Positions 8,895 through 22,127 of a stretch of 64,000 nt of DNA are shown piece after piece (within the stretch, counting starts at the first letter, position 1; each line of letters starts with the position of its first letter). The DNA comes from Streptomyces sulfonofaciens (GTDB lineage Bacteria; Actinomycetota; Actinomycetes; Streptomycetales; Streptomycetaceae). Both the position numbers and the translations under genes were made by a program. The notes beneath the pieces are model-generated. The model had not been told where the DNA came from and did not search any database. It saw nothing but the letters and a program-made list of their open reading frames with translations. The stretch spans positions 472,155 through 536,154 of the forward strand of contig NZ_BNCD01000003.1 in assembly GCF_014656295.1 (NCBI RefSeq). The letters are read 5' to 3'.

Positions 8895-9908
8895 ATGGGT
8901 GACTCAACCGTGACCGCTGTGGAAGATCCACACAAGAACTTCGTCTCACCCATGCTGGACCGTCCACGGGGCGTCCGGGGCGCGCGTCGGGCACTCGGGA
9001 GCTGGCGCGCGGACCCGGCGGGCACCACCCGGACGGTCCTGCTGCGGGCGCGCACGCCCCGCAGGCCGCACCTGTGGTTCGAGGTGCTGCTGATCGCCGC
9101 GAGTTACTGGGTCTACTCGATGATCCGCAGCGTCGTGCCGGAGCAGCGCGGCCAGGCGATGCGGAACGCCGACTGGCTGTGGGAGCTGGAGCGCCGCCTC
9201 GGGATCGCCGTGGAGAGCGCCGTCAACAAGGGCGTGGACTCGGTCAACTGGCTGATCGTGGGGATGAACTACTACTACGCCACGCTGCACTTCGTGGTCA
9301 CCATCGGCGTGCTGGCCTGGCTGTACCGACGGCATCCCGGCCGTTACTCCGCGACGCGCCTGGTCCTGCTGGTGACCACCGGATCGGCCCTGGTCGGCTA
9401 CTACCTGTATCCGCTCGCACCGCCGCGGTTGATAAGCCGCAGCATGTTCGTGGACACGGTGGTGACCCACCGGACGTGGGGCTCGCTCGGCTCGGACAGC
9501 CTGAAGGACGTCTCGAACCAGTACGCGGCGATGCCGTCCATGCACGTGGGGTGGGCGCTGTGGTGCGGTCTCACCGTCTTCGCGCTGTCGAAGGTGCCCT
9601 GGGTGCGGGTGCTCGCGCTGGTCTACCCGGCGATCACGGTCGTCGTGATCGTGGCCACCGCCAACCACTTCTGGCTGGACGCGGTGGGCGGGATCATCTG
9701 CCTGGCCTGCGGATACCTGGTGGCGCGCTGGTGGTACGGCGCCTGGCCCTACGCCCTGCCCCGCCGCGTCCCGCGGCCCGGCCCGTCCAGAAGGGCCGCC
9801 GCCTCCGTCCCGGTCACCGCGGGTTCGCCGCGCGTGCGCCCCACCGGCTGTACCAACCTGGAGACGGTCGAACTCGTCCGGCGCGCCGCACGCCGGACCA
9901 GAGGCTGA
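8895..9908 (+). CDS. PAP2-superfamily integral membrane protein
   Basis: Membrane phosphatase or phospholipid head-group transferase of the PAP2/AUR1-like type, 337 residues. The N-terminal 60 residues are basic and soluble, followed by about six hydrophobic segments. The three active-site motifs are visible: YPLAPPR near 175, a PSMHVGW motif near 217 and ATANHFWLD near 255 with the catalytic His. These fit the inositolphosphotransferase-like branch (PAP2_3) better than classical phosphatidate phosphatases. The substrate is unknown. No strong Shine-Dalgarno precedes the ATG at 8895, and a downstream GTG is possible. It is co-directional with malR after 69 bp. Confidence 0.82.
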   Translation: MGDSTVTAVEDPHKNFVSPMLDRPRGVRGARRALGSWRADPAGTTRTVLLRARTPRRPHLWFEVLLIAASYWVYSMIRSVVPEQRGQAMRNADWLWELERRLGIAVESAVNKGVDSVNWLIVGMNYYYATLHFVVTIGVLAWLYRRHPGRYSATRLVLLVTTGSALVGYYLYPLAPPRLISRSMFVDTVVTHRTWGSLGSDSLKDVSNQYAAMPSMHVGWALWCGLTVFALSKVPWVRVLALVYPAITVVVIVATANHFWLDAVGGIICLACGYLVARWWYGAWPYALPRRVPRPGPSRRAAASVPVTAGSPRVRPTGCTNLETVELVRRAARRTRG

Positions 9909-9988
9909 GCCGCGGCCGCCGGGGCGCCGAGCCCGCTGCCGGCCACCGCGCCGGGGCGCCCGCCCCGGACCACCCCCGCCCGGCCCCC

Positions 9989-10027
9989 GCCCGGCGGGTG
10001 GCGCGGGCGCCCGGCGGGTGGCGCGGG
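9989..10027. repeat. 20-bp tandem duplication in a convergent intergenic gap
   Basis: A 19-bp unit beginning GCCCGGCGGG is repeated perfectly at 9989-10007 and 10009-10027, one base apart. It lies between the PAP2 gene and the stop of the FAD/Fe-S dehydrogenase gene. The gap is very GC-rich and may terminate from both sides. Confidence 0.75.
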
Positions 10028-10037
10028 TGTGACCGGC

Positions 10038-12908
10038 TCAGGCGGTGGCCTCGTCGAGGAGTTCCAGGACGTGCCGGTAGGGGCGGCCGGTCGCCCGGCT
10101 CATCCCCATCTCGCAGGTGCGGTTGCAGGAGGCGTACGCGTCGTAGGTGCGCGCGGTGACCTCGGCGGCCTGGGCTGCGGTCGCCGCCGCGGTGACCTCG
10201 GGGTGCAGCAGGCCCCGGTCGCCGGCGAACGCGCAGCAGCCCCAGCTCTCGGGCACGGTGACGTCCTCGCTGAGGGCCCCGGCCACGGTGCGCAGCGCGC
10301 CGTCGATGCCGAGGTGGACGGTGGAGCACGTGGGGTGCAGGGCGAGGCTGCCGAGCCGGCGGGGCTCGGGCAGCGCGGGCAGCAGGTGCTCGGCGGTGAA
10401 GGCCACGCTGTCGACGAAGCGCAGGGCACCGAAGCGGGACCCCTCGGACGCCGGCAGGGCGCCGAGTAGCTGCTCCAGGCCGTGGGTGCAGGAGGACGCG
10501 TCGCAGACCACGGGCAGCCGGCCGTTCTCCGATGCCTCCAGGAGCACCTCCAGCGTGCGCTCGGCCATGGTGCGGTGACCGGCGGTGTAGCCCTTGGACT
10601 GCCAGGGGGTGCCGCAGCACAGATCGGCCAGGCCGGCCGGCACGGTCACCGGAACCCCGGCACGCTCGCACAGCCTGAGGAAGGCGGCCGCGGAGCCCGC
10701 CGCGTGCGCCGCGGCGGCGCCGCCCCGCTCGGGGGCGAAGACGCTGCCGATGCAGGCCGCGAAGAACACCGCCCGCGCGCCGGTGGGCCGCCGGGCCGCG
10801 GGCCTGGCCGGGCCGCCGCGCGGGATGTCGTCCGACCAGGCGGGCACGAGGTCGGTGGCGCCCAGGGAGCGGACCGCCTTGGTGGCGGCGCGCGCGACGG
10901 GCGCGGGAATGGCGCCCGCGGTGTTCAACGCGGCCCGCACGCCCTTGACCGCACTCCCCCAGTGCCGGGCCGCGGCGGCACCGGCGCGCTGGGCCCCGGC
11001 CCCGTGGCGTTCGGCTCGCAGCCGCTTCATCACCGCGCCGGTGTCGATGGCCACCGGGCAGGAGACCACGCACAGGCTGTCGGCGGCGCAACTGTCGACG
11101 GCCGCGTAGGCGTAGTCGGCCTCCAGGGTGCGGCGCCGCTCGTCGTCCCCGGCGGCCGTCGCGAGCGCGATCTCCCGGCTGAGCGCGATGCGCTGGCGGG
11201 GGGTCGTCGTCGCGTCCGCGGTGGGGCAGACGGGCTCGCAGTAGCCGCACTCGACGCAGGCGTCCACGGCGGGGTCGACCTCGGGAACGCTCTTGAGGCT
11301 GCGCAGGTGGACGGCGGGGTCGTCCGCCAGGAGCACCCCGGGGTTGAGCACCGCGTGCGGGTCGCACAGGCGCTTGAGCTCCCGCATGACCTCGTACAGC
11401 TCGTCGCCGTACTGGCGGCGCACGAAGGGCGCCATGGCGCGGCCGGTGCCGTGTTCCGCCTTGAGGGTGCCGCCTGCGTCCAGGACGAGGTCGACCATGT
11501 CGTCGGTGAACCGGGCGTACCGCTCGGTCTGCGCGGTGGAGTCGAAACTCTGCGTGAGCATGAAGTGGAGGTTGCCGTCCCGGGCGTGGCCGAAGATCAC
11601 CGCGTCCTGGTAGCCGTGCCGGTCGAACAGGCCGATGAGCCCCTCGCAGGTGCCGGTCAGCCGGTCCAGGGGCACCGCGATGTCCTCCAGCAGGGCGGTG
11701 GTGCCGGGGCGGCGCGCCCCGGCGACCGCGGTGTACAGGCCCTTGCGCAGGTGCCAGAGCGCGGCCCTGGCAGCCGGGTCGCGGGTGAGGGCGGTGCCGG
11801 TGACCGCGGGCAGGCGGTCCAGCACGGGCCGTGCCGCGGCGACCGTCGCGTCGAGCGCCCGGGCGTCGTCCTCGGCGAACTCGACAAGCAGCGCGGCGTG
11901 CCGCTCCACCCGCAGCCCGCGCAGGTCGGCCACCGGGTCCGGGGCACGCTGCGCCACCCGCAGGGAGGCCGCGTCCAGCAGTTCGGCGGTGCGGGCGCCG
12001 GCGGCCAGCAGGGCGGGCAGGGCGTCGGTGGCCTCGGCCAGGCCCGGCAGCACCAGCAGGCCGGTGGCGGTGTGCGGCAGGACGGGGACGGTGCGGAAGA
12101 CGGCCTCGCCGACGAAGCCCAGCGTGCCCTCGCTGCCGATCATGAGGTGGGTGAGGATGTCGACCGGGTCCGTGTGGTCGAGGAACGAGTTGAGCCCGTA
12201 GCCCATGGTGTTCTTCATCGCGAACAGCCGCTCGACGGCGGCGCGGGAGGCGGCCGAGGCACGGATCCGCTCGCGCAGCCGGAGCAGTCCCGCGTGCAGC
12301 TCGGGCTCGGCGGCCCGCAGGGCCCCGTCCGCGTCCGGTGCCGCGGAGTCGACCACCGTGCCCGAGGGCAGCACGAACTGGAGGGACTCCATGGTCCGGT
12401 AGGCGTTGTCCTGCGTACCGCAGTTCATACCGCTGGAGTTGTTGGCCACCAGGCCGCCGATGGTGCAGGCGGCCTCGCTCGCCGGGTCGGGGCCGAGGCG
12501 GCGGCCGTGCGGGGCGAGGCGGGCGTTGGCCTGGCGTACGGTCAGGCCCGGTTGCAGCCGGATGCGCCGGCCCCCGTCGAGGACCTCGGCGGCGCGCCAG
12601 TGGCTGCGCACGTCCACCAGGATGCCCTCGCCGCCGGCCTGCCCGGACAGGCTGGTGCCGCCGGAGCGCAGTGTCAGCGGCAGTCCCGCCGCGCGCGCCC
12701 CGGCCATCAGCGCGCCCACCTCGGCGGCCGACGCGGCGCGCACCACGGCCTGCGGGGTGAACAGGTACGGCGAGGCGTCGTGGGCGGCGGCGGCCGTGCG
12801 GGGTAGGTCGGTCGTCACCCGTGCCGGGTCGCTCACGCACGAGGCCAGCAGGCCGGCCAGGCCGGCTGCCCGGCGGACCGCGGCGGATGGGGCGTCGGAG
12901 GGGCTCAT
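10038..12908 (-). CDS. FAD-binding and Fe-S oxidoreductase, D-lactate dehydrogenase-like
   Basis: Predicted respiratory 2-hydroxyacid dehydrogenase of 956 residues that joins three modules: an FAD-binding_4 domain (RSGGTSLSGQA near 80, GLVANNSSG near 150), an FAD-oxidase C-terminal domain to about 490, two 4Fe-4S motifs (CVECGYCEPVCP near 550; CxxxSLCVVSCP near 605), and a C-terminal GlpC/LldE-like CCG region (ACIGSVF near 717, CCGTPWQSKG near 763, HPTCST near 856, WGCCAF near 890). Single-chain versions of GlcD plus GlcF occur among D-lactate and D-2-hydroxyglutarate dehydrogenases. Its place behind anmK and opposite murQ makes D-lactate released from MurNAc-6-phosphate the likely substrate (inference). 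ATG at 12908 with GAGGA 5 nt upstream. Last gene of the minus-strand operon. Confidence 0.87.
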   Translation of the reverse strand: MSPSDAPSAAVRRAAGLAGLLASCVSDPARVTTDLPRTAAAAHDASPYLFTPQAVVRAASAAEVGALMAGARAAGLPLTLRSGGTSLSGQAGGEGILVDVRSHWRAAEVLDGGRRIRLQPGLTVRQANARLAPHGRRLGPDPASEAACTIGGLVANNSSGMNCGTQDNAYRTMESLQFVLPSGTVVDSAAPDADGALRAAEPELHAGLLRLRERIRASAASRAAVERLFAMKNTMGYGLNSFLDHTDPVDILTHLMIGSEGTLGFVGEAVFRTVPVLPHTATGLLVLPGLAEATDALPALLAAGARTAELLDAASLRVAQRAPDPVADLRGLRVERHAALLVEFAEDDARALDATVAAARPVLDRLPAVTGTALTRDPAARAALWHLRKGLYTAVAGARRPGTTALLEDIAVPLDRLTGTCEGLIGLFDRHGYQDAVIFGHARDGNLHFMLTQSFDSTAQTERYARFTDDMVDLVLDAGGTLKAEHGTGRAMAPFVRRQYGDELYEVMRELKRLCDPHAVLNPGVLLADDPAVHLRSLKSVPEVDPAVDACVECGYCEPVCPTADATTTPRQRIALSREIALATAAGDDERRRTLEADYAYAAVDSCAADSLCVVSCPVAIDTGAVMKRLRAERHGAGAQRAGAAAARHWGSAVKGVRAALNTAGAIPAPVARAATKAVRSLGATDLVPAWSDDIPRGGPARPAARRPTGARAVFFAACIGSVFAPERGGAAAAHAAGSAAAFLRLCERAGVPVTVPAGLADLCCGTPWQSKGYTAGHRTMAERTLEVLLEASENGRLPVVCDASSCTHGLEQLLGALPASEGSRFGALRFVDSVAFTAEHLLPALPEPRRLGSLALHPTCSTVHLGIDGALRTVAGALSEDVTVPESWGCCAFAGDRGLLHPEVTAAATAAQAAEVTARTYDAYASCNRTCEMGMSRATGRPYRHVLELLDEATA

Positions 12909-12983
12909 GGGTCCTCGGGTGGTGGGTGCGGGCGGGGGACGGGGCGGCGGTCGGCGGGGCGGTCCGCCGGAGCCGGTGGGCGA

Positions 12984-14159
12984 TCAGCCGGATCCGGTGA
13001 TCCGCATCAGGCGCGGGGGCCGGGCGGCGGGTTCGGGCAGCCGCAGCGGGTGCCGGCCCGGTGTGATGCTGCCCAGCACGGTGGCCCGGCGGGCGCCGGT
13101 GCCGGAAGGCAGGGTACCGGGCAGGCCGTGGACCGTGAGGAACCCGAGGACGGCGAAGGCCAGCGCCTCCTTGGCGTCGGAGGGCAGGCCGAGATCGCCG
13201 CTGGGGCGGATGGCCACGCCCGGCAGTTCCTCGGCGATCATGCGCATCAGCACCGGGTTGTGTGCGCCGCCGCCGGAGACCACGAGCTGGGTGACCCGGT
13301 GGGCGCGGCACGCGTCGGCCACGGTGACGGCGGTCAGCCTGGCCAGGGTGGCCAGGACGTCGTCGGGGCGGGGCGTGGGCACCGCGGTCAGGGCCCGCAG
13401 GAGGTACGGCAGGTGGAAGTGCTCCTTGCCGGTGCTCTTCGGGGCCGGCCTGCGGTAGTAGGGGTCGTCGAGGAGCAGTTCCAGCAGCTCGGTGCTGACC
13501 TGCCCGGCGGCTGCCCCGCGGCCCTGTGCGTCGTACTCGGCGGCGCCGTCGGTGAAGTGCCGTACGGCGGCGTCCAGCAGGGCGTTGGCGGGACCGGTGT
13601 CGAAGGCCAGCGGGTCGGCGCCGGGCGCGACGACGGTGACGTTCGCGATGCCGCCCAGGTTCAGCGCGGCGGGGGTGCCGGGCAGGGCGGCGAGGAGCAG
13701 GGTGTCGGTCATGCCGACCAGCGGTGCCCCCTGGCCGCCGGCGGCGACGTCCCGGGAGCGCAGGTCGGAGACCACCGGCAGGCCGGTGGCCTCCGCGATC
13801 CAGGCCGGCTCGCCGAGTTGCAGCGTGCCGCGTACGGCGCCGTCCTCGACCCAGTGGTACATCGTCTGGCCGTGCGAGACCACCAGGTCGGCGGCGCCGG
13901 CGCACAGCTCCCGCTGGGCGCGCCCCGCGGCATCGGCGAACGCCTGGCCGATGCCGGTGTCCAGTGCGCAGACGTCGTGCGCGCTGGTGGCCGACGGCGG
14001 CAGGGTGGCGCCGATGAGGGCGCGCAGGTCGTCCGGGTACGGCACCGAGAGATGGCCGAGGGGCCGCATCACGAGGGTGTCGCCGTCCAGGGCCAGGTCG
14101 GCGGCGGCCGCCTCGATCGCGTCGTAGGAGGTGCCCGACATCAGGCCGATCACACGCAC
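12984..14159 (-). CDS. anmK: Anhydro-N-acetylmuramic acid kinase
   Basis: Converts 1,6-anhydro-MurNAc plus ATP to MurNAc-6-phosphate, the substrate of MurQ; cytoplasmic. The 391-residue length fits the family. Visible signatures are the N-terminal phosphate loop (VIGLMSGTSYD, residues 3-13), a DLRSRDVAAGGQGAPLV segment near 140-157, an LNLGGIANVT motif near 180 and LVVSGGGAHNP near 295. The annotated start is GTG at 14159, 6 nt after AGGAGG; the ATG further upstream would add an unrelated Pro/Arg/His extension. Between the symporter (151 bp) and the FAD/Fe-S dehydrogenase (75 bp) on the same strand. Confidence 0.93.
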   Translation of the reverse strand: MRVIGLMSGTSYDAIEAAAADLALDGDTLVMRPLGHLSVPYPDDLRALIGATLPPSATSAHDVCALDTGIGQAFADAAGRAQRELCAGAADLVVSHGQTMYHWVEDGAVRGTLQLGEPAWIAEATGLPVVSDLRSRDVAAGGQGAPLVGMTDTLLLAALPGTPAALNLGGIANVTVVAPGADPLAFDTGPANALLDAAVRHFTDGAAEYDAQGRGAAAGQVSTELLELLLDDPYYRRPAPKSTGKEHFHLPYLLRALTAVPTPRPDDVLATLARLTAVTVADACRAHRVTQLVVSGGGAHNPVLMRMIAEELPGVAIRPSGDLGLPSDAKEALAFAVLGFLTVHGLPGTLPSGTGARRATVLGSITPGRHPLRLPEPAARPPRLMRITGSG

Positions 14160-14310
14160 GGCGCCTCCTGGATGCGGTGCGCGGCGGTGGGGGCGGGGGC
14201 GCACGGCGGAGCCGGGCGGGGCTGCTGCATGGTCTCTCCGGTGCGGTGCGGATGGGGCGGGCACGCGGGCCTGCGCGCCCCGGGTCCTGCCCCGGGGCGC
14301 GCGGGCCGTG

Positions 14311-15882
14311 TCACTCGCGGCCGGCCGGCGCGGCGAGGCGGTCGGGCCCTTCGCCGGCCCCGGCGGCCGGCACCGCGGCGGCGCGCTCCTGCGGTGCGCG
14401 GTGGAACAGGCTCATCAGGCCGCCGACCGCGAGGGTGACCAGCACGCCGATCGGCACCAGCCACTGGGCCGCGATCGCCGTCGGGACGGTGGCCCCGGCC
14501 ACGGTGACGTCGATCTTCACCCAGCGCACGATGTAGGTCATGACGGCCACCGTGACCAGGAAGGCCACGATGGAGTCCACCTCGTTGGCGCGCCGGATCA
14601 GCCGGCCGAGCAGGAACGCGCCGAGCAGCGCCCCGTAGGTGTAGCCCGCGATGGCCAGGCCCGTCAGGTAGACGTTGCCGGTGCTGGTGCTGAAGGCGCA
14701 GGCGAAGACGGCCATCAGCGCCGCCCACACCAGCGTCATCACCCGGGCGAGCTTCAGCAGGGCCGCGTCGGAGGGCGTCCTGCGGAAGAAGCTGTGGATG
14801 ATGTCGGCGACCGTCGAGTTCGACATGGAGTTCAGCGCCGCGGACAGCGAGCCCATGGCGGCGCCGAGGATGCCGGCCACCAGCAGGCCGGAGATCACCA
14901 CGGGCAGGCCGTGCAGGATGAAGTTCGGGTAGAGGTTGTCGGAGCTGGCCAGCCCGAGGTCCTTGAAGCTCCTGCCCTTGTTGTAGGACCACAGCAGCGC
15001 GCCGACCAGGGAGAAGGCCGCGAACTGGATGGTGACGAAGACACCCGAGGCGATCATGGCCTTCTGGCCGTCGCGGAGCGTCCTGGTGGTCAGGATCCGC
15101 TGGACCATGAGCTGGTCGGAGCCGTGGCTGGCCATGGCGAAGATGGCGCCGCCGATGATGGCCGTCGGCAGGGCGAAGGAGCTGGTGAGGATGTGGGCGG
15201 GCGTGAAGTCGGTGTCGAAGAGCCTGAACTGCCCGGCGTGCAGGGCGTCGGAGAAGCCCGCGCCGCCGACATGGCCGGAGAGCACGGCGATGGCGAGGAT
15301 CGCGCCGCCGAAGTAGAGGAACATCTGGATGGCGTCGGTCCAGATGACCGCCTTGATGCCGCCGAGGTAGGTGTAGACGACGGTGATCACGGTGAGCACG
15401 ACGATGATGAGCCGGTAGCCGGCGTGCACGCCGAACTCGTCGAGCAGCAGCTTGATCGGGATCGCGGAGGCGAACAGCCGCACGCCCTCGGCGAGCAGGC
15501 GGGTGAAGACGAAGGTGACCGAGGCGAGCCCCTGGAGCTTCAGCCCGAACCTGTCCCCCAGGTACTGGTAGGCGCTGACGAACCCGCCGCGCTTGTAGAG
15601 CGGGATGAGGACGCCGGCCACGACGACGCGGCCGACGACGTAGCCCAGCGCGAGCTCGACGTTGCCGAACGCCTGGCCGCTGTAGGCGCCGCCGGGGACG
15701 CTGATCACGGTCAGCACGCTGGTCTCGGTGGCCACCACGGAGAACGCGACGGTCCACCACGGCATATGGCCCTCGCCGATGAAATAGCTCTTGGCCGTTC
15801 TCTGCCGGCCGGCCAGGCGCAGCCCGATCACGGCGATCGCGATCAGATAGACGATGACCACCACGAGGTCGAGTTGGCGCAC
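14311..15882 (-). CDS. Sodium:solute symporter (SSS family), probable amino-sugar importer
   Basis: Integral membrane cation-coupled importer of 523 residues with about 13 hydrophobic segments. SSS hallmarks: the opening VIVYLIAIAVIGL helix, SYFIGEG near 34, a helix with SVVATETSVLTV near 50, and the sodium-site region around GSDQLMVQRIL near 260. I place the start at GTG 15882, 5 nt after AGGAG; the GTG at 15888 overlaps that site. It starts 9 bp after the kinase stop, so the two are probably translationally coupled. Context suggests MurNAc, anhydro-MurNAc or a related wall sugar as substrate. SSS members also carry sialic acid and other solutes, so the substrate is inferred. Confidence 0.87.
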   Translation of the reverse strand: MRQLDLVVVIVYLIAIAVIGLRLAGRQRTAKSYFIGEGHMPWWTVAFSVVATETSVLTVISVPGGAYSGQAFGNVELALGYVVGRVVVAGVLIPLYKRGGFVSAYQYLGDRFGLKLQGLASVTFVFTRLLAEGVRLFASAIPIKLLLDEFGVHAGYRLIIVVLTVITVVYTYLGGIKAVIWTDAIQMFLYFGGAILAIAVLSGHVGGAGFSDALHAGQFRLFDTDFTPAHILTSSFALPTAIIGGAIFAMASHGSDQLMVQRILTTRTLRDGQKAMIASGVFVTIQFAAFSLVGALLWSYNKGRSFKDLGLASSDNLYPNFILHGLPVVISGLLVAGILGAAMGSLSAALNSMSNSTVADIIHSFFRRTPSDAALLKLARVMTLVWAALMAVFACAFSTSTGNVYLTGLAIAGYTYGALLGAFLLGRLIRRANEVDSIVAFLVTVAVMTYIVRWVKIDVTVAGATVPTAIAAQWLVPIGVLVTLAVGGLMSLFHRAPQERAAAVPAAGAGEGPDRLAAPAGRE

Positions 15883-15890
15883 GCTCACTC

Positions 15891-16895
15891 CTAAACAACG
15901 GCCGGTGGTGCCACCGGTGGGGACGAGGGGGTGGAAGGCGGCGCGGTTCGCCGCCGCAGGCGGGTGACATGGGGCTCGTGCGGAGCTGAGGAGGTGAGGG
16001 CCAGCAGGCGCGCGCCGTCCAGCGGGCCGCCGAGCGGTGGCCTCGGGTGCAGCCGTCCGGAGGCGGTGACGGCGGCGGTGAGCGGCTCCATCAGCACGTC
16101 GCCGAGTGCCGTCAGGCCGCCCGTGACGGCGACGGGCAGGCCCTCGTCGCCGCCGCCGATCCGGTGGGCGGCCGCGACCACGGCCGCGCCGAGTGCCGTG
16201 GCGGCGTCCAGGACGACGGCGCGGGCGGCCTCGTCGCCCTCGGCGGCGGCACGGGCCACCACGGGCGCGAAGGAGGCGGCGGTCCTGGCCGGACTGCCGT
16301 CCTCGTGCAGGGCGAGCGGCAGCCGGTCGGGGCTGCCGAACCGGTCGACGGCGGCGGCCAGCAGCGTGGTGGCCGGCCCGCGCCCGTCGTGCGCGCGCAG
16401 CGCGGCCCGCAGCCCGGCGGCCCCGATCCACGCGCCGCCGCCTTCGTCGCCGAGCCAGGGGCCCCAGCCGTCGACGCGTGCGTACGTGCCGTCGTCCCCG
16501 ATGCCGACCGCGACGGAACCGGTGCCCGCGGCCAGCACCACCCCGGGGCCGCCGCCGAGCGCACCGGCGTGCGCGGTGACCGCGTCACTGGTGACGGCCG
16601 TCTCGTCCGCGGACAGGTCGTCGAGCAGCAGAGCGGCCAGGGCACGCGCCGCGGCGGGCGCGGACGCGGCACCGGCGGCGCCCACGCAGACCGTGCCCGG
16701 CCGCACGCCGTGCTCCCGCTCGATGAGCGGGAGCACGGCGGCGAGCACGGCGGCGCGGGCGCTCTGCACACCGTCGCCGGTGGCCAGGCCGGGAGCGCCC
16801 GGCACCTCGTTGACGTCCGAGGGAGCACCGGTGCCGGTCCACAGCACGGCCCGGCAACCGGTCTTCCCCAGGTCCACCGCCACAGCAGCAGTCAT
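15891..16895 (-). CDS. BadF/BadG-type amino-sugar kinase (MurK/NagK-like)
   Basis: ATP-dependent sugar kinase of the ASKHA fold, 334 residues. Visible: phosphate-1 loop AVDLGKTGCRA (residues 6-16), phosphate-2 LAAGTGSVAVG near 120, the WGPWLGDEGGGAWIG segment near 143 that is typical of eukaryote-type GlcNAc kinases, and a C-terminal VAVTGGLTALGD adenosine motif near 265. Members of this family phosphorylate GlcNAc, and MurK of Clostridium phosphorylates both MurNAc and GlcNAc. Next to murQ and anmK, MurNAc and/or GlcNAc 6-kinase is the best guess. The C-terminal 40 residues are Pro/Ser/Arg-rich and probably disordered. ATG at 16895 with AGAGGG upstream; first gene of the operon. Confidence 0.85.
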   Translation of the reverse strand: MTAAVAVDLGKTGCRAVLWTGTGAPSDVNEVPGAPGLATGDGVQSARAAVLAAVLPLIEREHGVRPGTVCVGAAGAASAPAAARALAALLLDDLSADETAVTSDAVTAHAGALGGGPGVVLAAGTGSVAVGIGDDGTYARVDGWGPWLGDEGGGAWIGAAGLRAALRAHDGRGPATTLLAAAVDRFGSPDRLPLALHEDGSPARTAASFAPVVARAAAEGDEAARAVVLDAATALGAAVVAAAHRIGGGDEGLPVAVTGGLTALGDVLMEPLTAAVTASGRLHPRPPLGGPLDGARLLALTSSAPHEPHVTRLRRRTAPPSTPSSPPVAPPAVV

Positions 16896-16982
16896 ACGGC
16901 ACGCCCTCTTGCTCGTCCGACGGGGATCCGGCGCGTCGGGCAGTCAGGGACCGGACGGCTCGGCGCGGATCGCGGTGCAGCG

Positions 16983-17012
16983 AGTATCGGAAGGCCGAGC
17001 TGCGTATGTCAA
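16983..17012 (-). promoter_or_regulatory. Promoter of the kinase-symporter-anmK-dehydrogenase operon
   Basis: On the minus strand TTGACA (17012-17007, perfect consensus) and GATACT (16988-16983) are separated by 18 bp. The predicted start lies near 16976, about 80 nt before the kinase ATG. Confidence 0.7.
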
Positions 17013-17045
17013 TAAGTAACTTCCCGTAATGAAGCACGTAATTTT
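17013..17045. promoter_or_regulatory. Shared AT-rich operator between divergent promoters
   Basis: This 33-bp AT-rich stretch fills the space between the two -35 boxes. It contains AAGTAACTT (an odd-centre palindrome), then two CGTAAT repeats 12 bp apart (17025 and 17037), with CTTC/GAAG half-sites around the first. It is the obvious binding site for the RpiR-type regulator encoded at 17100. Binding is inferred. Confidence 0.55.
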
Positions 17046-17074
17046 TTGACGCACCCCCTCGCCGTCGCTAGTCT
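17046..17074 (+). promoter_or_regulatory. Promoter of rpiR-murQ
   Basis: TTGACG (17046-17051) and TAGTCT (17069-17074) are 17 bp apart, a near-ideal vegetative promoter. A start near 17081 would give a roughly 19-nt leader containing the AGGAGG. Confidence 0.75.
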
Positions 17075-17099
17075 GTCGCCCTCCACCCAGGAGGGATCC

Positions 17100-18050
17100 A
17101 TGGCCCAGCAGGTCTCACCCCGCACCCCGGCGCACCCGGCGGACAACGCGACGCCCGCCGACACCCTGGCCCGCATCCGCGCCGCGCGGCCGTCACTGGC
17201 TCCCTCGGAACGCCGGGTGGCCGACGCCGTCCTGGCCGATCCCGCCCAGGCCGCTGAGCTGTCCATCGGCGCGCTCGGCAAGCGGGCGAACACCTCGGCG
17301 GCCACCGTGATGCGGTTCTGCCGGACCATCGGCCTCGGCAACTATCCGCAGCTTCGCCTGGCGCTGGCGGCCGCCGCCGCCCGCGAGCACGCCCTCGGCG
17401 GTGAGCGGCCGCCGGCGGGCACCGACATAAGCGCCACCGACACGCTGGACCAGATCGTCAGCAAGATCATCTACAACGAGGTCCGCGCCCTGGAGGAGTC
17501 CGGCGCCGAACTGGACGTCGTTGCGCTCGGCCACGCGGTCGACGCCGTGGCGGGCGCCCGGCGGGTCGACATCTTCGGCGTCGGCGCCAGCGCGTTCGTC
17601 GGGCAGGACCTGCACCAGAAGCTCCACCGCATCGGCCGCATGGCCTTCATCTGGACCGACATGCACGCGGCCCTCACCGCCGTCGCCCTGCTCGGCCCCG
17701 GCGACGTCGCGCTGGCCATCTCGCACTCCGGTGAGACCGAGGACACCGTCGAGCCCCTCCAGGCCGCCGCGGAGCGCGGCGCCACCACGATCGCCCTCAC
17801 CAACTACCCGCACTCCCCGCTCGCGGAGAGCGCCGACTTCGCACTGACCACCTGCGCCCGCGAGACCCCGTTCCGCTCCGGCGCGACCGTCAGCCGCATC
17901 GCCCAGCTCGCCGTCATCGACTGCCTGTTCGTCGGTGTGGCACAGCGCTCCTTCGAGGCCACCACCGCCGCGCTGGAGAAGACCTACGGAGCCGTCCAGC
18001 GCCGCGGGCGCCGCCACCAGCCGGCGCGGCGCGCACCCGCCGGCGACTGA
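17100..18050 (+). CDS. RpiR/MurR-family transcriptional regulator with SIS domain
   Basis: Phosphosugar-sensing regulator, 316 residues. The N-terminal HTH_6 domain (around residues 22-95) includes the SIGALGKRANTSAATVMRFC recognition region; the C-terminal SIS domain (about 130-270) has the DIFGVGASAFVGQD and AISHSGETEDT phosphosugar-binding loops. E. coli MurR, of the same family, senses MurNAc-6-phosphate and controls murQ; this gene precedes murQ by 41 bp. ATG at 17100 lies 5 nt after an AGGAGGG; an upstream in-frame ATG would start inside the promoter. Likely represses or activates both arms of the divergent cluster through the 17013-17045 operator. Confidence 0.9.
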   Translation: MAQQVSPRTPAHPADNATPADTLARIRAARPSLAPSERRVADAVLADPAQAAELSIGALGKRANTSAATVMRFCRTIGLGNYPQLRLALAAAAAREHALGGERPPAGTDISATDTLDQIVSKIIYNEVRALEESGAELDVVALGHAVDAVAGARRVDIFGVGASAFVGQDLHQKLHRIGRMAFIWTDMHAALTAVALLGPGDVALAISHSGETEDTVEPLQAAAERGATTIALTNYPHSPLAESADFALTTCARETPFRSGATVSRIAQLAVIDCLFVGVAQRSFEATTAALEKTYGAVQRRGRRHQPARRAPAGD

Positions 18051-18091
18051 CGGCAACGCGAAGAGAACCACCCGGAAAGGACGATCGCGCC

Positions 18092-18988
18092 GTGGACCTC
18101 AGCACACTCGGCACCGAGAGCCGCAACGAGCGGACCGCGGAACTGGACCGTATGCCGGTCGCCGAACTGCTCTCCGTCATGAACGCCGAGGACCTCACCG
18201 TCGCCGCCGCGGTCCGCGACGCGCTCCCGCGGATCGGCGCCGCCGTCGAGGCGATCACCGCATCCCTGCGGCAGGGCGGCCGGCTGGTGTACCTGGGGGC
18301 CGGCACCAGCGGCCGGATCGGATTGCTCGACGCCGTGGAGTGCCCGCCGACCTTCGGCACGGCGCCCGAGCAGGTGGTGGGCCTGCTGTCCGGTGGGCCG
18401 GGCGCGTTCGCCAGGGCGGTCGAGGGCGCCGAGGACGACGCAGGCGCCGCGGCCGCCGATCTCGACGGGATCGGGGTCGGCAGCCGGGACACCGTCGTCG
18501 GTCTCGCGGCCAGCGGCCGCACTCCCTATGTGGTGGGCGGCCTGCGGCACGCCCGCGCCGCCGGTGCCCGCACGGTGTCCGTGGCGTGCAACCGCGACGC
18601 CGTCATCAGCCGGCACGCGGACATCGCCATCGAGGTGCCGACCGGCCCCGAGGTGCTGACCGGGTCGACGCGGCTGAAGGCCGGGACCGCCCAGAAGCTG
18701 GTCTGCAACATGCTCTCCACCGCCTCCATGGTCCGCGTGGGCAAGGTGTACGGGAACCTGATGGTCGACGTCAGGGCCAGCAACGACAAGCTCGTCGACC
18801 GGGCCCGCCGCATGGTGGCCGAGGCCGCGGGGACCGACCCGGACACCGCGGCCCGCGCCCTGGCCGCCGCCGGGGGCCACGCCAAGACCGCCATCGTGAT
18901 GCTGCTGGGGCGCTGCACGCCCGAGGAGGGCGCCCGGCGGCTGGAGCGCGCGGACGGCGACGTCCGGGCCGCCGTCGACCGCTCCTGA
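18092..18988 (+). CDS. murQ: N-acetylmuramic acid 6-phosphate etherase
   Basis: Cleaves the lactyl ether of MurNAc-6-phosphate to give GlcNAc-6-phosphate and D-lactate; cytoplasmic. Length (298 residues) and motifs fit the family: LGAGTSGRIGLLDAVECPPT near 69-88 with a conserved Glu, a GAEDD acid patch near 113, VGLAASGRTPYVVGGL near 135, and RLKAGTAQKLVCNMLST near 192. Start is GTG at 18092 with GGAAAGG about 10 nt upstream. It follows the RpiR gene in the same transcript and ends before a perfect stem-loop. GlcNAc-6-phosphate would enter NagA/NagB metabolism encoded elsewhere. Confidence 0.96.
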   Translation: MDLSTLGTESRNERTAELDRMPVAELLSVMNAEDLTVAAAVRDALPRIGAAVEAITASLRQGGRLVYLGAGTSGRIGLLDAVECPPTFGTAPEQVVGLLSGGPGAFARAVEGAEDDAGAAAADLDGIGVGSRDTVVGLAASGRTPYVVGGLRHARAAGARTVSVACNRDAVISRHADIAIEVPTGPEVLTGSTRLKAGTAQKLVCNMLSTASMVRVGKVYGNLMVDVRASNDKLVDRARRMVAEAAGTDPDTAARALAAAGGHAKTAIVMLLGRCTPEEGARRLERADGDVRAAVDRS

Positions 18989-19000
18989 CGACCCGGCGAG

Positions 19001-19042
19001 GTGGTCCGGGGCAGGTCCGAGACCACCGCAGCCCCGGACCAC
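19001..19042. terminator. Stem-loop after murQ
   Basis: Perfect 12-bp arms (19001-19012 and 19031-19042, GTGGTCCGGGGC and its complement) with an 18-nt loop start 12 bp after the murQ stop. No T-run, as usual in Streptomyces. It can serve murQ and the convergent glnE. Confidence 0.75.
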
Positions 19043-19133
19043 GCGCCGCACGCACTGCACGCTGCCCCGGGCCGGGCGCCCCGGGCACCAAGGTCCCCGT
19101 GGACGCGGCCGGGACCCGCAGCCGCCGGCGCGG

Positions 19134-22127
19134 CTAGGACTCGTAGAAGCGCGACTCCACCACGGCGCGCGCCCGGCGCGTGGTGCGCCGGTAGTCCTCC
19201 AGCATGTCCCCGGCGTGCCCGGGCCCGTACCCGAGGTACCGCGCCACCGCGGCCAGCTCCCTGACCTCCGTCGGGAACGTGTCGCCCGCCCGCCCCCGCA
19301 CCAGCATCACCGCGTTGCGCACCCGGGTCGCCAGCACCCAGGCCTCGTCCAGTGTCGACGCGTCCCGCTCGGTCAGCAGTCCCGCCCCGCGCGCCGCGGC
19401 GAGCGCCTGCCGGGTCCTCGGGGTCCTGAGCGACGGCTCGTGGCCGCCGTGCCGCAGTTGCAGCAGTTGCACCGTCCACTCGACGTCGGAGAGGCCGCCC
19501 CGGCCGAGCTTGGTGTGCAGCGCCGGATCGGCGCCGCGCGGCAGCCGCTCCGACTCCATGCGCGCCTTGAGCCGCCGGATCTCCCGCACCGCGTCCTCAC
19601 CGAGCCCGGCGGCGGGGTAGCGCAGCCGGTCGGCCAGGCGCAGGAAGCGCCGCGCCAGGTCCTCGTCGCCCGCGACGTACTGCGCCCGCAGCAGCGCCTG
19701 CGACTCCCACACCAGCGACCAGCGGCGGTAGTACGCCTCGTACGACTTCAGCGTGCGCACCAGCGGCCCCGACTTGCCCTCCGGCCGCAGCCCCGTGTCG
19801 ATCAGCAGCGGCGGGTCGGCGCTCGGCAGTTGCAGCAGCCTGCGCATCTCCTCGACGACGGTGTGCGCGGCACGGCCCGCCTCCTGCTCGTCGACGCCCT
19901 CGCGCGGCTCGTGCACGAAGACGACGTCCGCGTCGGAGCCGTAGCCCAGCTCGTGGCCGCCGAAGCGGCCCATGCCGATCACGGCGAACCGGGTCGGCAG
20001 CTCGTCGCCCCAGCGGTCGCGGACCACGGCCCGCAGCGTTCCCGCCAGGGTCGCCGCCGTCAGGTCGGAGACGGCGCCGCCGACCAGGTCCACCAGCGTC
20101 CCCGGATCGCCTCCCGCGGGCCTCTCCTCGGTGCCGTAGGAGCCGATGAGGTCCGCGGCCGCGGTACGGAACAGCTCACGGCGGCGGACCGCCCGGGCCG
20201 CGGTGACACCCTGCGCGGCACCCTCGGCGCGGCCCACCGCGGACAGGATCTCCTGCTCGAGCTGGGCCCGCTCGCGCGGTTCGAGGCCGCCCGGGCCGCC
20301 GAGCAGGGCGACCGCCTCGGGGGCGCGCATCAGCAGGTCGGGGGCGAGCCGGCCGGCGGAGAGCACCCGGGCGAGGTTCTCGGCCGCCGCGCCCTCGTCG
20401 CGCAGCAGCCTGAGGTACCAGGGCGTCTTGCCGAGCGCGTCGGAGACCTTGCGGAAGTTCAGCAGCCCGGCGTCCGGATCGGCGGAGTCCGCGAACCAGC
20501 CGAGCAGCACCGGCAGCAGGGTGCGCTGGATGGCCGCCTTGCGGGTCACGCCGGAGGCCAGCGCCTCCAGGTGCCGCAGCGCCGTGCCCGGGTCGGCGTA
20601 CCCGAGCGCGACCATCCGCTCCCGGGCCGCACCGGTGCTCAGCCTGGTCTCGCCGGGCGCGAGCTGGGCGACCGCGTCCAGCAGCGGGCGGTAGAAGAGC
20701 TTCTCGTGCAGCCGTCGGACGACGGAGGTGTGGCGCCGCCACGCCCGGCCGAGGTCGGTGATGGGCTCGGTGCGCATGCCGAGCGAGCGGCCGATGCGCC
20801 GCAGGTCGGCCTCGTCCTCCGGCACCAGATGGGTCCTGCGCAGCCGGTGGAGCTGGATGCGGTGCTCCATCGAGCGCAGGAAGCGGTAGGCGTCGTCGAG
20901 CTGCACGGCGTCCACCCGGCCGACGTAGCCGCCCGCGGCGAGCGCCTTGAGCGCGTTCAGGGTGGTGCCGCTGCGCAGGGTGGTGTCGGCGCGGCCGTGC
21001 ACGAGCTGGAGAAGCTGGACGGCGAACTCGACGTCCCTGAGGCCGCCGGGGCCGAGCTTCAGCTCCCGCTCGACCTCCCCCGCCGGGATGTTCTCCACGA
21101 TCCGGCGGCGCATCTTCTGCACGTCGGCGACGAAGTTCTCGCGCTCCGCGGCCTGCCAGACGAGGGGGGAGACCGCCGCCATGTACGCGGCACCCAGCTC
21201 GGCGTCGCCGGCGACCGGGCGGGCCTTGAGCAGCGCCTGGAACTCCCAGGTCTTCGCCCAGCGCTGGTAGTAGGCGAGATGGCTGGCGAGGGTGCGCACC
21301 AGCGGGCCGTTGCGGCCCTCCGGGCGCAGGTTGGCGTCCACCGGCCAGATCGAGCCCTCCACCGTCGTCTCGGAGCAGATCCGCATCAGCAGCGAGGCCA
21401 GCCGGATCGCGGCCTGGACCGCCTTGTCCTCGTCGGCGCCCTCGACCGGGTCCGCCACGAAGACCACGTCGACGTCGGAGACGTAGTTGAGCTCGTGGCC
21501 GCCGCACTTGCCGAGCGCGATCACGGAGAGCCGGCACAGGGCGGCGTCCTCGGGGATCCGCTCCGCTGCGAGGGCGAGCGCGGCACGCAGCGTGGCGGTG
21601 GCGAGGTCGGCGAGCTCCGCCGCGGTCTCGGCGACGTCGGTGGTGCCGCAGACGTCGCGGGCCGCGATGGACAGCAGGCAGCGCCGGTAGGCGACGCGCA
21701 GCGTGACGGGGTCGTCGGCCCCGGCGAGGCCCCGTTCGAACTCCGCCACGCCCGGGTGCAGGTCCTCCTGCTCGTAGGTGACCAGGGCCTGCCAGTCGCC
21801 GGGGTGCCTGGCCAGGTGGTCGCCCAGCGCCTCGGAGGCGCCGAGCACCCCGATCAGCCGGTCGCGCAGCGGCTTGGCGGCGACCAGGGTGTCCAGCAGC
21901 GCCCGGCGCCCTGTGGCGTCCGGCTGGGCCTCCACCAGGCGGCCGAGGCCGCGCAGCGCGAGGTCGGGATCGGCGGCGCCGCCGAGCGCGTCCAGCAGGA
22001 CGGGATCGGTGCGCACGGCGGCGAGCGGGCCGGACGCCAGCAGCCGCTCGGCGGCGGACGGGTCGGTGAAGCCGAGCCGCAGCAGCCGTGTGAAGGTACT
22101 GCTCCTGCGCCCTTGCGGCACCGTCAT
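19134..22127 (-). CDS. glnE: Bifunctional glutamine synthetase adenylyltransferase/deadenylylase
   Basis: Controls class I glutamine synthetase (GlnA) by adding or removing AMP on a tyrosine. The 997-residue product has the duplicated nucleotidyltransferase architecture: an N-terminal half with GKCGGHELNYVSDVDVVFV near 206-224 (adenylyl removal) and a C-terminal half with GMGRFGGHELGYGSDADVVF near 718-737 (adenylyl transfer), each followed by a PII-uridylyl-like helical domain. Both halves keep the G-G-x-E-L-x(2)-x-S-D-x-D core, so both activities should be present. ATG at 22127, 9 nt after AGGAGG. Transcribed towards murQ. The 231-bp gap to the next gene (22128-22358) holds promoters only. 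Confidence 0.96.
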   Translation of the reverse strand: MTVPQGRRSSTFTRLLRLGFTDPSAAERLLASGPLAAVRTDPVLLDALGGAADPDLALRGLGRLVEAQPDATGRRALLDTLVAAKPLRDRLIGVLGASEALGDHLARHPGDWQALVTYEQEDLHPGVAEFERGLAGADDPVTLRVAYRRCLLSIAARDVCGTTDVAETAAELADLATATLRAALALAAERIPEDAALCRLSVIALGKCGGHELNYVSDVDVVFVADPVEGADEDKAVQAAIRLASLLMRICSETTVEGSIWPVDANLRPEGRNGPLVRTLASHLAYYQRWAKTWEFQALLKARPVAGDAELGAAYMAAVSPLVWQAAERENFVADVQKMRRRIVENIPAGEVERELKLGPGGLRDVEFAVQLLQLVHGRADTTLRSGTTLNALKALAAGGYVGRVDAVQLDDAYRFLRSMEHRIQLHRLRRTHLVPEDEADLRRIGRSLGMRTEPITDLGRAWRRHTSVVRRLHEKLFYRPLLDAVAQLAPGETRLSTGAARERMVALGYADPGTALRHLEALASGVTRKAAIQRTLLPVLLGWFADSADPDAGLLNFRKVSDALGKTPWYLRLLRDEGAAAENLARVLSAGRLAPDLLMRAPEAVALLGGPGGLEPRERAQLEQEILSAVGRAEGAAQGVTAARAVRRRELFRTAAADLIGSYGTEERPAGGDPGTLVDLVGGAVSDLTAATLAGTLRAVVRDRWGDELPTRFAVIGMGRFGGHELGYGSDADVVFVHEPREGVDEQEAGRAAHTVVEEMRRLLQLPSADPPLLIDTGLRPEGKSGPLVRTLKSYEAYYRRWSLVWESQALLRAQYVAGDEDLARRFLRLADRLRYPAAGLGEDAVREIRRLKARMESERLPRGADPALHTKLGRGGLSDVEWTVQLLQLRHGGHEPSLRTPRTRQALAAARGAGLLTERDASTLDEAWVLATRVRNAVMLVRGRAGDTFPTEVRELAAVARYLGYGPGHAGDMLEDYRRTTRRARAVVESRFYES

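Follow-up and report, generated by a model that had tools for sequence, protein, structure and literature searches.

We describe a block of six genes in a window of 64,000 nucleotides from Streptomyces sulfonofaciens (assembly GCF_014656295.1, contig NZ_BNCD01000003.1, positions 472,155-536,154, forward strand), which is very likely an accessory unit, under local regulation, for the catabolism of muramic sugars that are set free from cell walls. This level of confidence applies to the whole explanation taken jointly, that is import, phosphorylation by the kinases, cleavage by MurQ, oxidation of the resulting D-lactate and repression. The six genes lie intact at 10038-18988 (coordinates are window positions; L numbers denote retrieved loci and G numbers genus genomes, G000 being the organism's own) in two divergent operons. 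The minus-strand operon encodes, in order, a BadF-type kinase, an SSS symporter, AnmK and a FAD/Fe-S dehydrogenase, and the plus-strand operon an RpiR/SIS regulator and MurQ, with intra-operon gaps of 2, 157, 75 and 41 bases. Because the block is present in further species, the arrangement is not due to chance.

10038-12908, minus strand: FAD/Fe-S fused 2-hydroxyacid dehydrogenase, 956 residues (Pfam/NCBIfam, active-site mapping, pocket conservation, neighbourhoods, tree)
12984-14153, minus strand: anmK, anhydro-N-acetylmuramic acid kinase (NF007146, PF03702, start codon and ribosome-binding site)
14311-15888, minus strand: SSS-family symporter, 525 residues (PF00474, relative of SiaT 5nv9, AnmK as constant neighbour)
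15891-16895, minus strand: BadF/NagK-type sugar kinase (PF01869; best solved relative 8zo3)
17100-18050, plus strand: RpiR/SIS-type regulator (HTH_6 and SIS domains; 70-74% identical orthologue in PTS-type operons)
18092-18988, plus strand: murQ, etherase for N-acetylmuramic acid 6-phosphate, accessory paralogue (TIGR00274, solved MurQ relatives, distribution)

The original prediction placed these genes in two divergent units and read them as a route for N-acetylmuramic acid (MurNAc) and its 1,6-anhydro form (anhMurNAc). The layout was confirmed with changes only to the starts of AnmK, the symporter and the regulator, and the family assignments below support the MurNAc/anhMurNAc reading. AnmK starts at 14153, before VIGLMSGT and with a ribosome-binding site, instead of 14264 as in the open reading frame list, and the regulator at ATG 17100 instead of TTG 17046; the symporter start codon was likewise corrected.

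A second, accessory murQ inserted between a PAP2 gene and glnE

The window MurQ scores 378 bits against TIGR00274 (cut-off 302), which assigns it to this equivalog, and matches the solved MurQ 4lzj over its full length. The motifs LDA-x-ECPPTFG and VEGAED, which we take to contain the catalytic Glu pair, are both present in the alignment. A murQ was found in 99 of the 101 genus genomes sampled, usually one that is 51-59% identical to that of the window, and the window type (at least 80% identity) in only three, namely S. sulfonofaciens and two others. The S. sulfonofaciens genome also holds a core murQ (G000:C1:159471), with an adjoining regulator and a product 52% identical to the window MurQ. 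The idea of a one-locus MurNAc pathway stands as a reading of the gene set, with the correction that this accessory MurQ system is the second in a genome that also has a core murQ of the SCO4307 kind. The core copy and its regulator match SCO4307/SCO4308 of S. coelicolor, in which MurP is missing (PMC5061867).

An S. coelicolor murQ mutant accumulates MurNAc-6-phosphate (MurNAc-6P) without added MurNAc (PMC5061867), as would be expected if such genes served to recycle the wall of the cell itself and not to scavenge external sugars. We regard this as an unlikely role for the window set, since it is already covered by the core murQ, present in nearly all of the 101 genomes and in S. sulfonofaciens itself, whereas the window set is rare, mobile and equipped with its own importer and repressor. 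Use of external muramic sugars remains the preferred reading.

The block is flanked by two genes:

8895-9908, plus strand: PAP2-family membrane protein, PF14378 (PAP2_3)
19134-22127, minus strand: glnE (NF010707, 1376 bits)

Of 16 other genomes, 11 have these two genes in convergent orientation with under 1 kb between them, four have 2-4.3 kb between them, and in one the genes are far from each other. The site is empty in G020 and G076, the two genomes that carry the full block at another place. The short spacing in most relatives, together with the empty sites, supports insertion of the block between PAP2 and glnE, as had been suggested. The four genomes with 2-4.3 kb of other DNA at this junction (window 9908-19134) are G005, G040, G067 and G086, and the site may be insertion-prone. 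In a near relative (L222:7992-13802, symporter 91% identical), RpiR-SSS-AnmK alone adjoins PAP2 and the glnE side is rearranged; at this site the block was either built up or trimmed. Another locus (L224:10112-10303), which also lacks the dehydrogenase, has a 64-residue C-terminal murQ remnant after the regulator.

The dehydrogenase is linked to MurQ

The dehydrogenase contains the domains FAD_binding_4, FAD-oxidase_C, Fer4_8 and CCG. When about 85,000 species genomes were scanned with five orthologues, we obtained 80 loci, which are split by an identity gap into a group at 75-87% (Streptomyces, Actinacidiphila, Micromonospora and a metagenome-assembled genome) and a group at 55-61% from many Actinobacteria. 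The 75-87% enzymes form one clade in the tree (support 99), and murQ adjoins the dehydrogenase at every one of their loci whose flanks are readable. Within the genus sample, an accessory murQ stands beside five of five clade members and none of 47 distant paralogues (Fisher p 4e-7, relatedness ignored).

In two species (L028/L044 and L032/L057) the operon that holds the dehydrogenase gene also encodes a different MurQ (53-54%) together with a phosphotransferase system (PTS) IIBC protein. The best family of this protein is the MurNAc transporter NF007152, with 348 and 343 bits for L028 and L032, under the cut-off of 516, so that a MurP-like PTS version with the same dehydrogenase also occurs in Streptomyces. 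These PTS-type dehydrogenases fall inside the Streptomyces SSS-type group in the tree, which indicates that one uptake module replaced another, with MurQ function and dehydrogenase kept together. As the enzyme occurs both with the symporter and kinases and with a PTS, the shared factor is MurQ and its products. In addition, Arthrobacter sp. B2a2-09 (L104) has an operon of murQ, dehydrogenase, a glucosamine-6-phosphate-isomerase-like (NagB-like) gene, an MFS transporter and anmK. Its dehydrogenase groups with a lactate-permease-linked branch described below, and the pairing with murQ appears to be a separate recruitment, read from a long branch.

Two further observations concern the distribution and structure of this enzyme. 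In Leifsonia aquatica (L091:7981-12748), RpiR, BadF kinase and dehydrogenase genes stand together with no murQ nearby. The second Fe-S motif (residues 607-617; C607-D610-C613-C617) has Asp610 at a usual cysteine position in 83 of 83 aligned relatives.

Comparative evidence for D-lactate as the substrate

In 15 loci, the gene for the nearest outgroup enzyme is found directly downstream of a gene of the L-lactate permease family (PF02652), and a GntR/FCD regulator is often present in divergent orientation (three permeases were scanned and the remainder assigned by clustering). Lactate is the substrate common to this permease and to MurQ, and MurQ releases the D form, which points to D-lactate. 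To compare active sites, we mapped residues onto mouse LDHD (PMC10589216) through a phmmer alignment. All five catalytic or metal residues are conserved, with LDHD Arg347, His398, His405, Glu442 and His443 corresponding to R388, H441, H448, E485 and H486. The pocket positions are Leu87, Tyr392, Ala405, Leu407 and Met450, of which Leu87, Tyr392, Leu407 and Met450 align with the hydrophobic subsite B of LDHD. All 25 murQ-linked and all 15 permease-linked enzymes have identical pocket residues; those of the genus paralogue differ.

The highest NCBIfam scores of the dehydrogenase are to YdiJ, a D-2-hydroxyglutarate dehydrogenase (171 bits), and then to the glycolate oxidase GlcD (158 bits), and the enzyme might use one of these or another 2-hydroxyacid, having been placed here by chance or for some other reason. 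This is highly improbable: both scores are far below their cut-offs (1350 and 568), the Lys with which D2HGDH binds the distal carboxylate is replaced by Leu407, and GlcD Tyr351 by Ala405, as in LDHD (Ala363). On these scores YdiJ and GlcD were rejected as identities. The pocket is moreover that of the lactate-permease-linked enzymes, and murQ stands beside all clade members with readable flanks. The comparative evidence strongly suggests that the dehydrogenase oxidises D-lactate, in line with the original prediction, and its Fe-S/CCG half points to quinone as the probable acceptor. A need for such an enzyme has a published rationale, since lactate accumulates between growth phases in Corynebacterium glutamicum engineered for MurNAc, and the authors propose more of its D-lactate dehydrogenase, Dld, as a way to avoid this (PMC6165865), which fits a dedicated D-lactate dehydrogenase.

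AnmK is the constant partner of the symporter

The symporter belongs to the SSS family (PF00474, 97.6 bits, cut-off 22.8), and among solved structures it is closest to SiaT, a sialic acid symporter (5nv9, 154 bits). AnmK scores 621 bits against NF007146 (cut-off 440) and also matches PF03702. In samples that were not selected by AnmK, the symporter gene had AnmK as its neighbour in five of five genus genomes and, among 16 relatives from across the class (45-80% identity), in 14; the two are also found together in all 20 operator-defined clusters (see below) that hold a symporter gene. The pair exists in G023 (L147) and G016 (L148), which have no local MurQ or dehydrogenase and carry the core murQ elsewhere. 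The single plasmid match (L228, NZ_CP016083.1, 533996-537052) is from Streptomyces sp. SAT1, where a linear plasmid carries the pair but not the regulator, murQ or the dehydrogenase. A different gene order, AnmK-SSS-MurQ-BadF-dehydrogenase, is seen at L185. As the constant partner is anmK, rather than murQ or the dehydrogenase, the symporter is best read as a candidate importer of anhMurNAc and MurNAc. More tentatively, and with slightly less than even confidence, we propose that the AnmK-linked symporter founds a class of importers, widespread in actinobacteria and dedicated to anhMurNAc, to which the six-gene form would add D-lactate respiration under one repressor. A search of open papers for AnmK, a symporter and anhMurNAc together found none.

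Since SSS proteins include monocarboxylate carriers (MctP, PMC3022706) and the closest solved relative carries sialic acid, the protein could instead carry lactate or pyruvate, or another acid sugar, as an outlet or side function. This is improbable, because the symporter is often found without murQ and dehydrogenase and nearly always with anmK, which suggests that its cargo follows AnmK; a lactate carrier was rejected for the same reason. It could also be a MurNAc-only importer, with AnmK handling internally made anhMurNAc. The murT-murK-murQ operon of Tannerella forsythia combines a sodium-symporter-superfamily MurT with a BadF kinase (PMC5790795), and the window cluster has a BadF kinase as well. 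In many clusters, however, SSS-AnmK has no local BadF kinase (L147, L148, L173, L215, L220, L222, L223 and Micromonospora), and imported MurNAc would there need a kinase from elsewhere. We consider a MurNAc-only importer a less probable but credible alternative to import of anhMurNAc and probably MurNAc.

Several observations weigh against the proposed assignments. The cargo of SiaT is, like the muramic sugars, an acidic amino sugar (PMC5931594). The equivalents of SiaT Asp182, Ser60 and Thr63 are retained in the symporter, but Arg135, which forms the salt bridge to the carboxylate, aligns with Ala. The nearest conserved Arg residues are three before and four after it, within a TRLLAxGvR motif conserved across 55 symporter sequences. 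The position of the SiaT Na2 residue Ser342 is Gly, and that of Ser343 is Ser. With the Arg135 and Ser342 equivalents missing, the assignment of cargo and coupling ion is tentative. Two symporter relatives have no adjoining AnmK; L183 has MurQ and BadF instead, and L181 neither. The closest solved relative of AnmK is a levoglucosan kinase (213 versus 197 bits), the best family of the regulator is not MurR (133 bits, cut-off 408) and only the RpiR superfamily can be assigned, and Micromonospora clusters have no nearby RpiR or BadF gene. A levoglucosan cluster was rejected given the AnmK equivalog score over its cut-off and the presence of MurQ; a true Escherichia coli-type MurR was rejected on the score above.

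A single conserved operator and a modular cluster

The spacer between the operons contains the following elements:

16983-17012, minus strand: promoter-like TTGACA-N18-GATACT of the kinase-symporter-AnmK-dehydrogenase operon, kept in alignment
17008-17050, unstranded: operator, inverted repeat GTCAATAAGTAAC-N17-GTAATTTTTTGAC, 43 bp, each half over a -35 box
17046-17074, plus strand: promoter-like TTGACG-N17-TAGTCT of the regulator-murQ operon

In an alignment of 14 divergent spacers we identified the inverted repeat GTCAAWAARTWAC-N17-GTWAYTTWTTGAC. In the window its two halves lie over the -35 boxes of the two divergent promoters, one half on each. The pattern matches once in the 8.65 Mb genome (reversed control 0) and in 22 of 393 genus genomes, once each (control 0), and all 22 matches lie in clusters of the muramic-sugar kind. 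One conserved operator over both promoters supports shared control of the two operons, as had been predicted. Twenty of the 22 clusters have SSS and AnmK; L221 is cut by a contig end, and L217 has AnmK with an ABC sugar transporter.

The expectation that the six genes occur together across Streptomyces held in part. They do co-occur, in six of the 22 operator-defined clusters, yet not as a fixed set: the cluster is modular, its smallest form being RpiR-SSS-AnmK. Among the 21 readable clusters, all six that have the dehydrogenase also have an intact local murQ, as do two of the 15 that lack it (Fisher p 0.0005, with relatedness ignored).

Related arrangements extend this picture. At L217 (5663-11322) the operator separates RpiR-AnmK (52%) from the operon of the ABC sugar transporter, giving the same apparent control over another uptake type. 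In G022 (L029:6673-13330), anmK-murQ is accompanied by an RpiR regulator and an ABC transporter of the peptide type, which adds one more form of uptake to this pathway. In the PTS-type operons a related promoter with a weaker repeat, judged by eye, precedes the dehydrogenase. Micromonospora (L048:6942-7133) retains an operator-like stretch, again by eye, before the symporter gene, though no RpiR gene is nearby. One IMG/VR contig has a match with a 12-base spacer, which may be chance.

Proposed pathway and significance

The BadF kinase (PF01869, BcrAD_BadFG fold family, 92 bits, cut-off 31.5) has as its best solved relative 8zo3, an 'N-acetylmuramic acid/N-acetylglucosamine kinase' (69 bits), and is probably a 6-kinase for MurNAc and N-acetylglucosamine. 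In the proposed pathway, the symporter would import anhMurNAc and probably MurNAc, which AnmK and the BadF kinase, respectively, are predicted from their families (and, for AnmK, from its known chemistry) to convert to MurNAc-6P. MurQ would act on MurNAc-6P, releasing D-lactate by its known chemistry, and the dehydrogenase would oxidise D-lactate to pyruvate, passing electrons via its Fe-S half to the quinone pool, with the presumed energy yield that the original prediction put forward. The RpiR/SIS protein would be a MurNAc-6P-responsive repressor of both operons that occupies the inverted repeat over both -35 boxes, with a sugar phosphate, probably MurNAc-6P, releasing it; the operator is shown by its conservation, and binding and ligand are inferred.

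In actinobacteria such as S. coelicolor, murQ is present and MurP is missing (PMC5061867). For mycobacteria, the MurNAc transporter is still described as unknown in a 2026 preprint (PMC13041923). The SSS-AnmK pair offers a named, testable candidate for the missing actinobacterial muramic-sugar importer, and the dehydrogenase link addresses the fate of the D-lactate from MurQ. If the pathway is correct, the whole muramic sugar, lactyl group included, would be burnt under one repressor, and the single-copy operator could be a ready reporter for muramic-sugar sensing. The kind of each enzyme is known. What appears new from the genome comparisons is how the genes are arranged, the pairing of SSS with AnmK across Actinobacteria, the single-copy operator, and a dedicated D-lactate dehydrogenase coupled to MurQ under exchangeable uptake modules.

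Comparison with known systems

The E. coli murR-murQP divergon (PMC5061867) resembles the window locus in having a regulator that adjoins, or is divergent from, MurQ and an uptake system, and in proceeding through MurNAc-6P. In contrast, the window has an SSS symporter and separate kinases in place of the PTS protein MurP, adds AnmK and the D-lactate dehydrogenase, and has its regulator co-directional with murQ. The core locus SCO4305-SCO4308 of S. coelicolor (PMC5061867) likewise has an RpiR-type regulator and MurQ, but is a separate paralogue without MurP; the S. sulfonofaciens genome holds both types.

For the dehydrogenase, the lctP operons of Arthrobacter and Pseudarthrobacter (L110, L079) encode a 55-60% identical FAD/Fe-S enzyme with the same pocket residues, and have the lactate permease, often with a GntR/FCD regulator, in place of MurQ. 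The Dld of C. glutamicum is presumably a shorter flavoprotein without the Fe-S half and with no murQ linkage. It is a quinone-dependent D-lactate dehydrogenase needed for growth on D-lactate (PMC3022706), and the inferred reaction, D-lactate to pyruvate, is the same.

SSS-type uptake of these sugars, which the original prediction considered unusual, is not without precedent, as the T. forsythia MurT, a MurNAc importer of the sodium-symporter superfamily, is encoded beside a BadF-type MurK and MurQ (PMC5790795). This operon (PMC5790795, PMC10465942) shares the importer type, a BadF-family kinase and MurQ with the window, MurT being likened to the window symporter by description; as described, it is without AnmK, RpiR and the D-lactate dehydrogenase.

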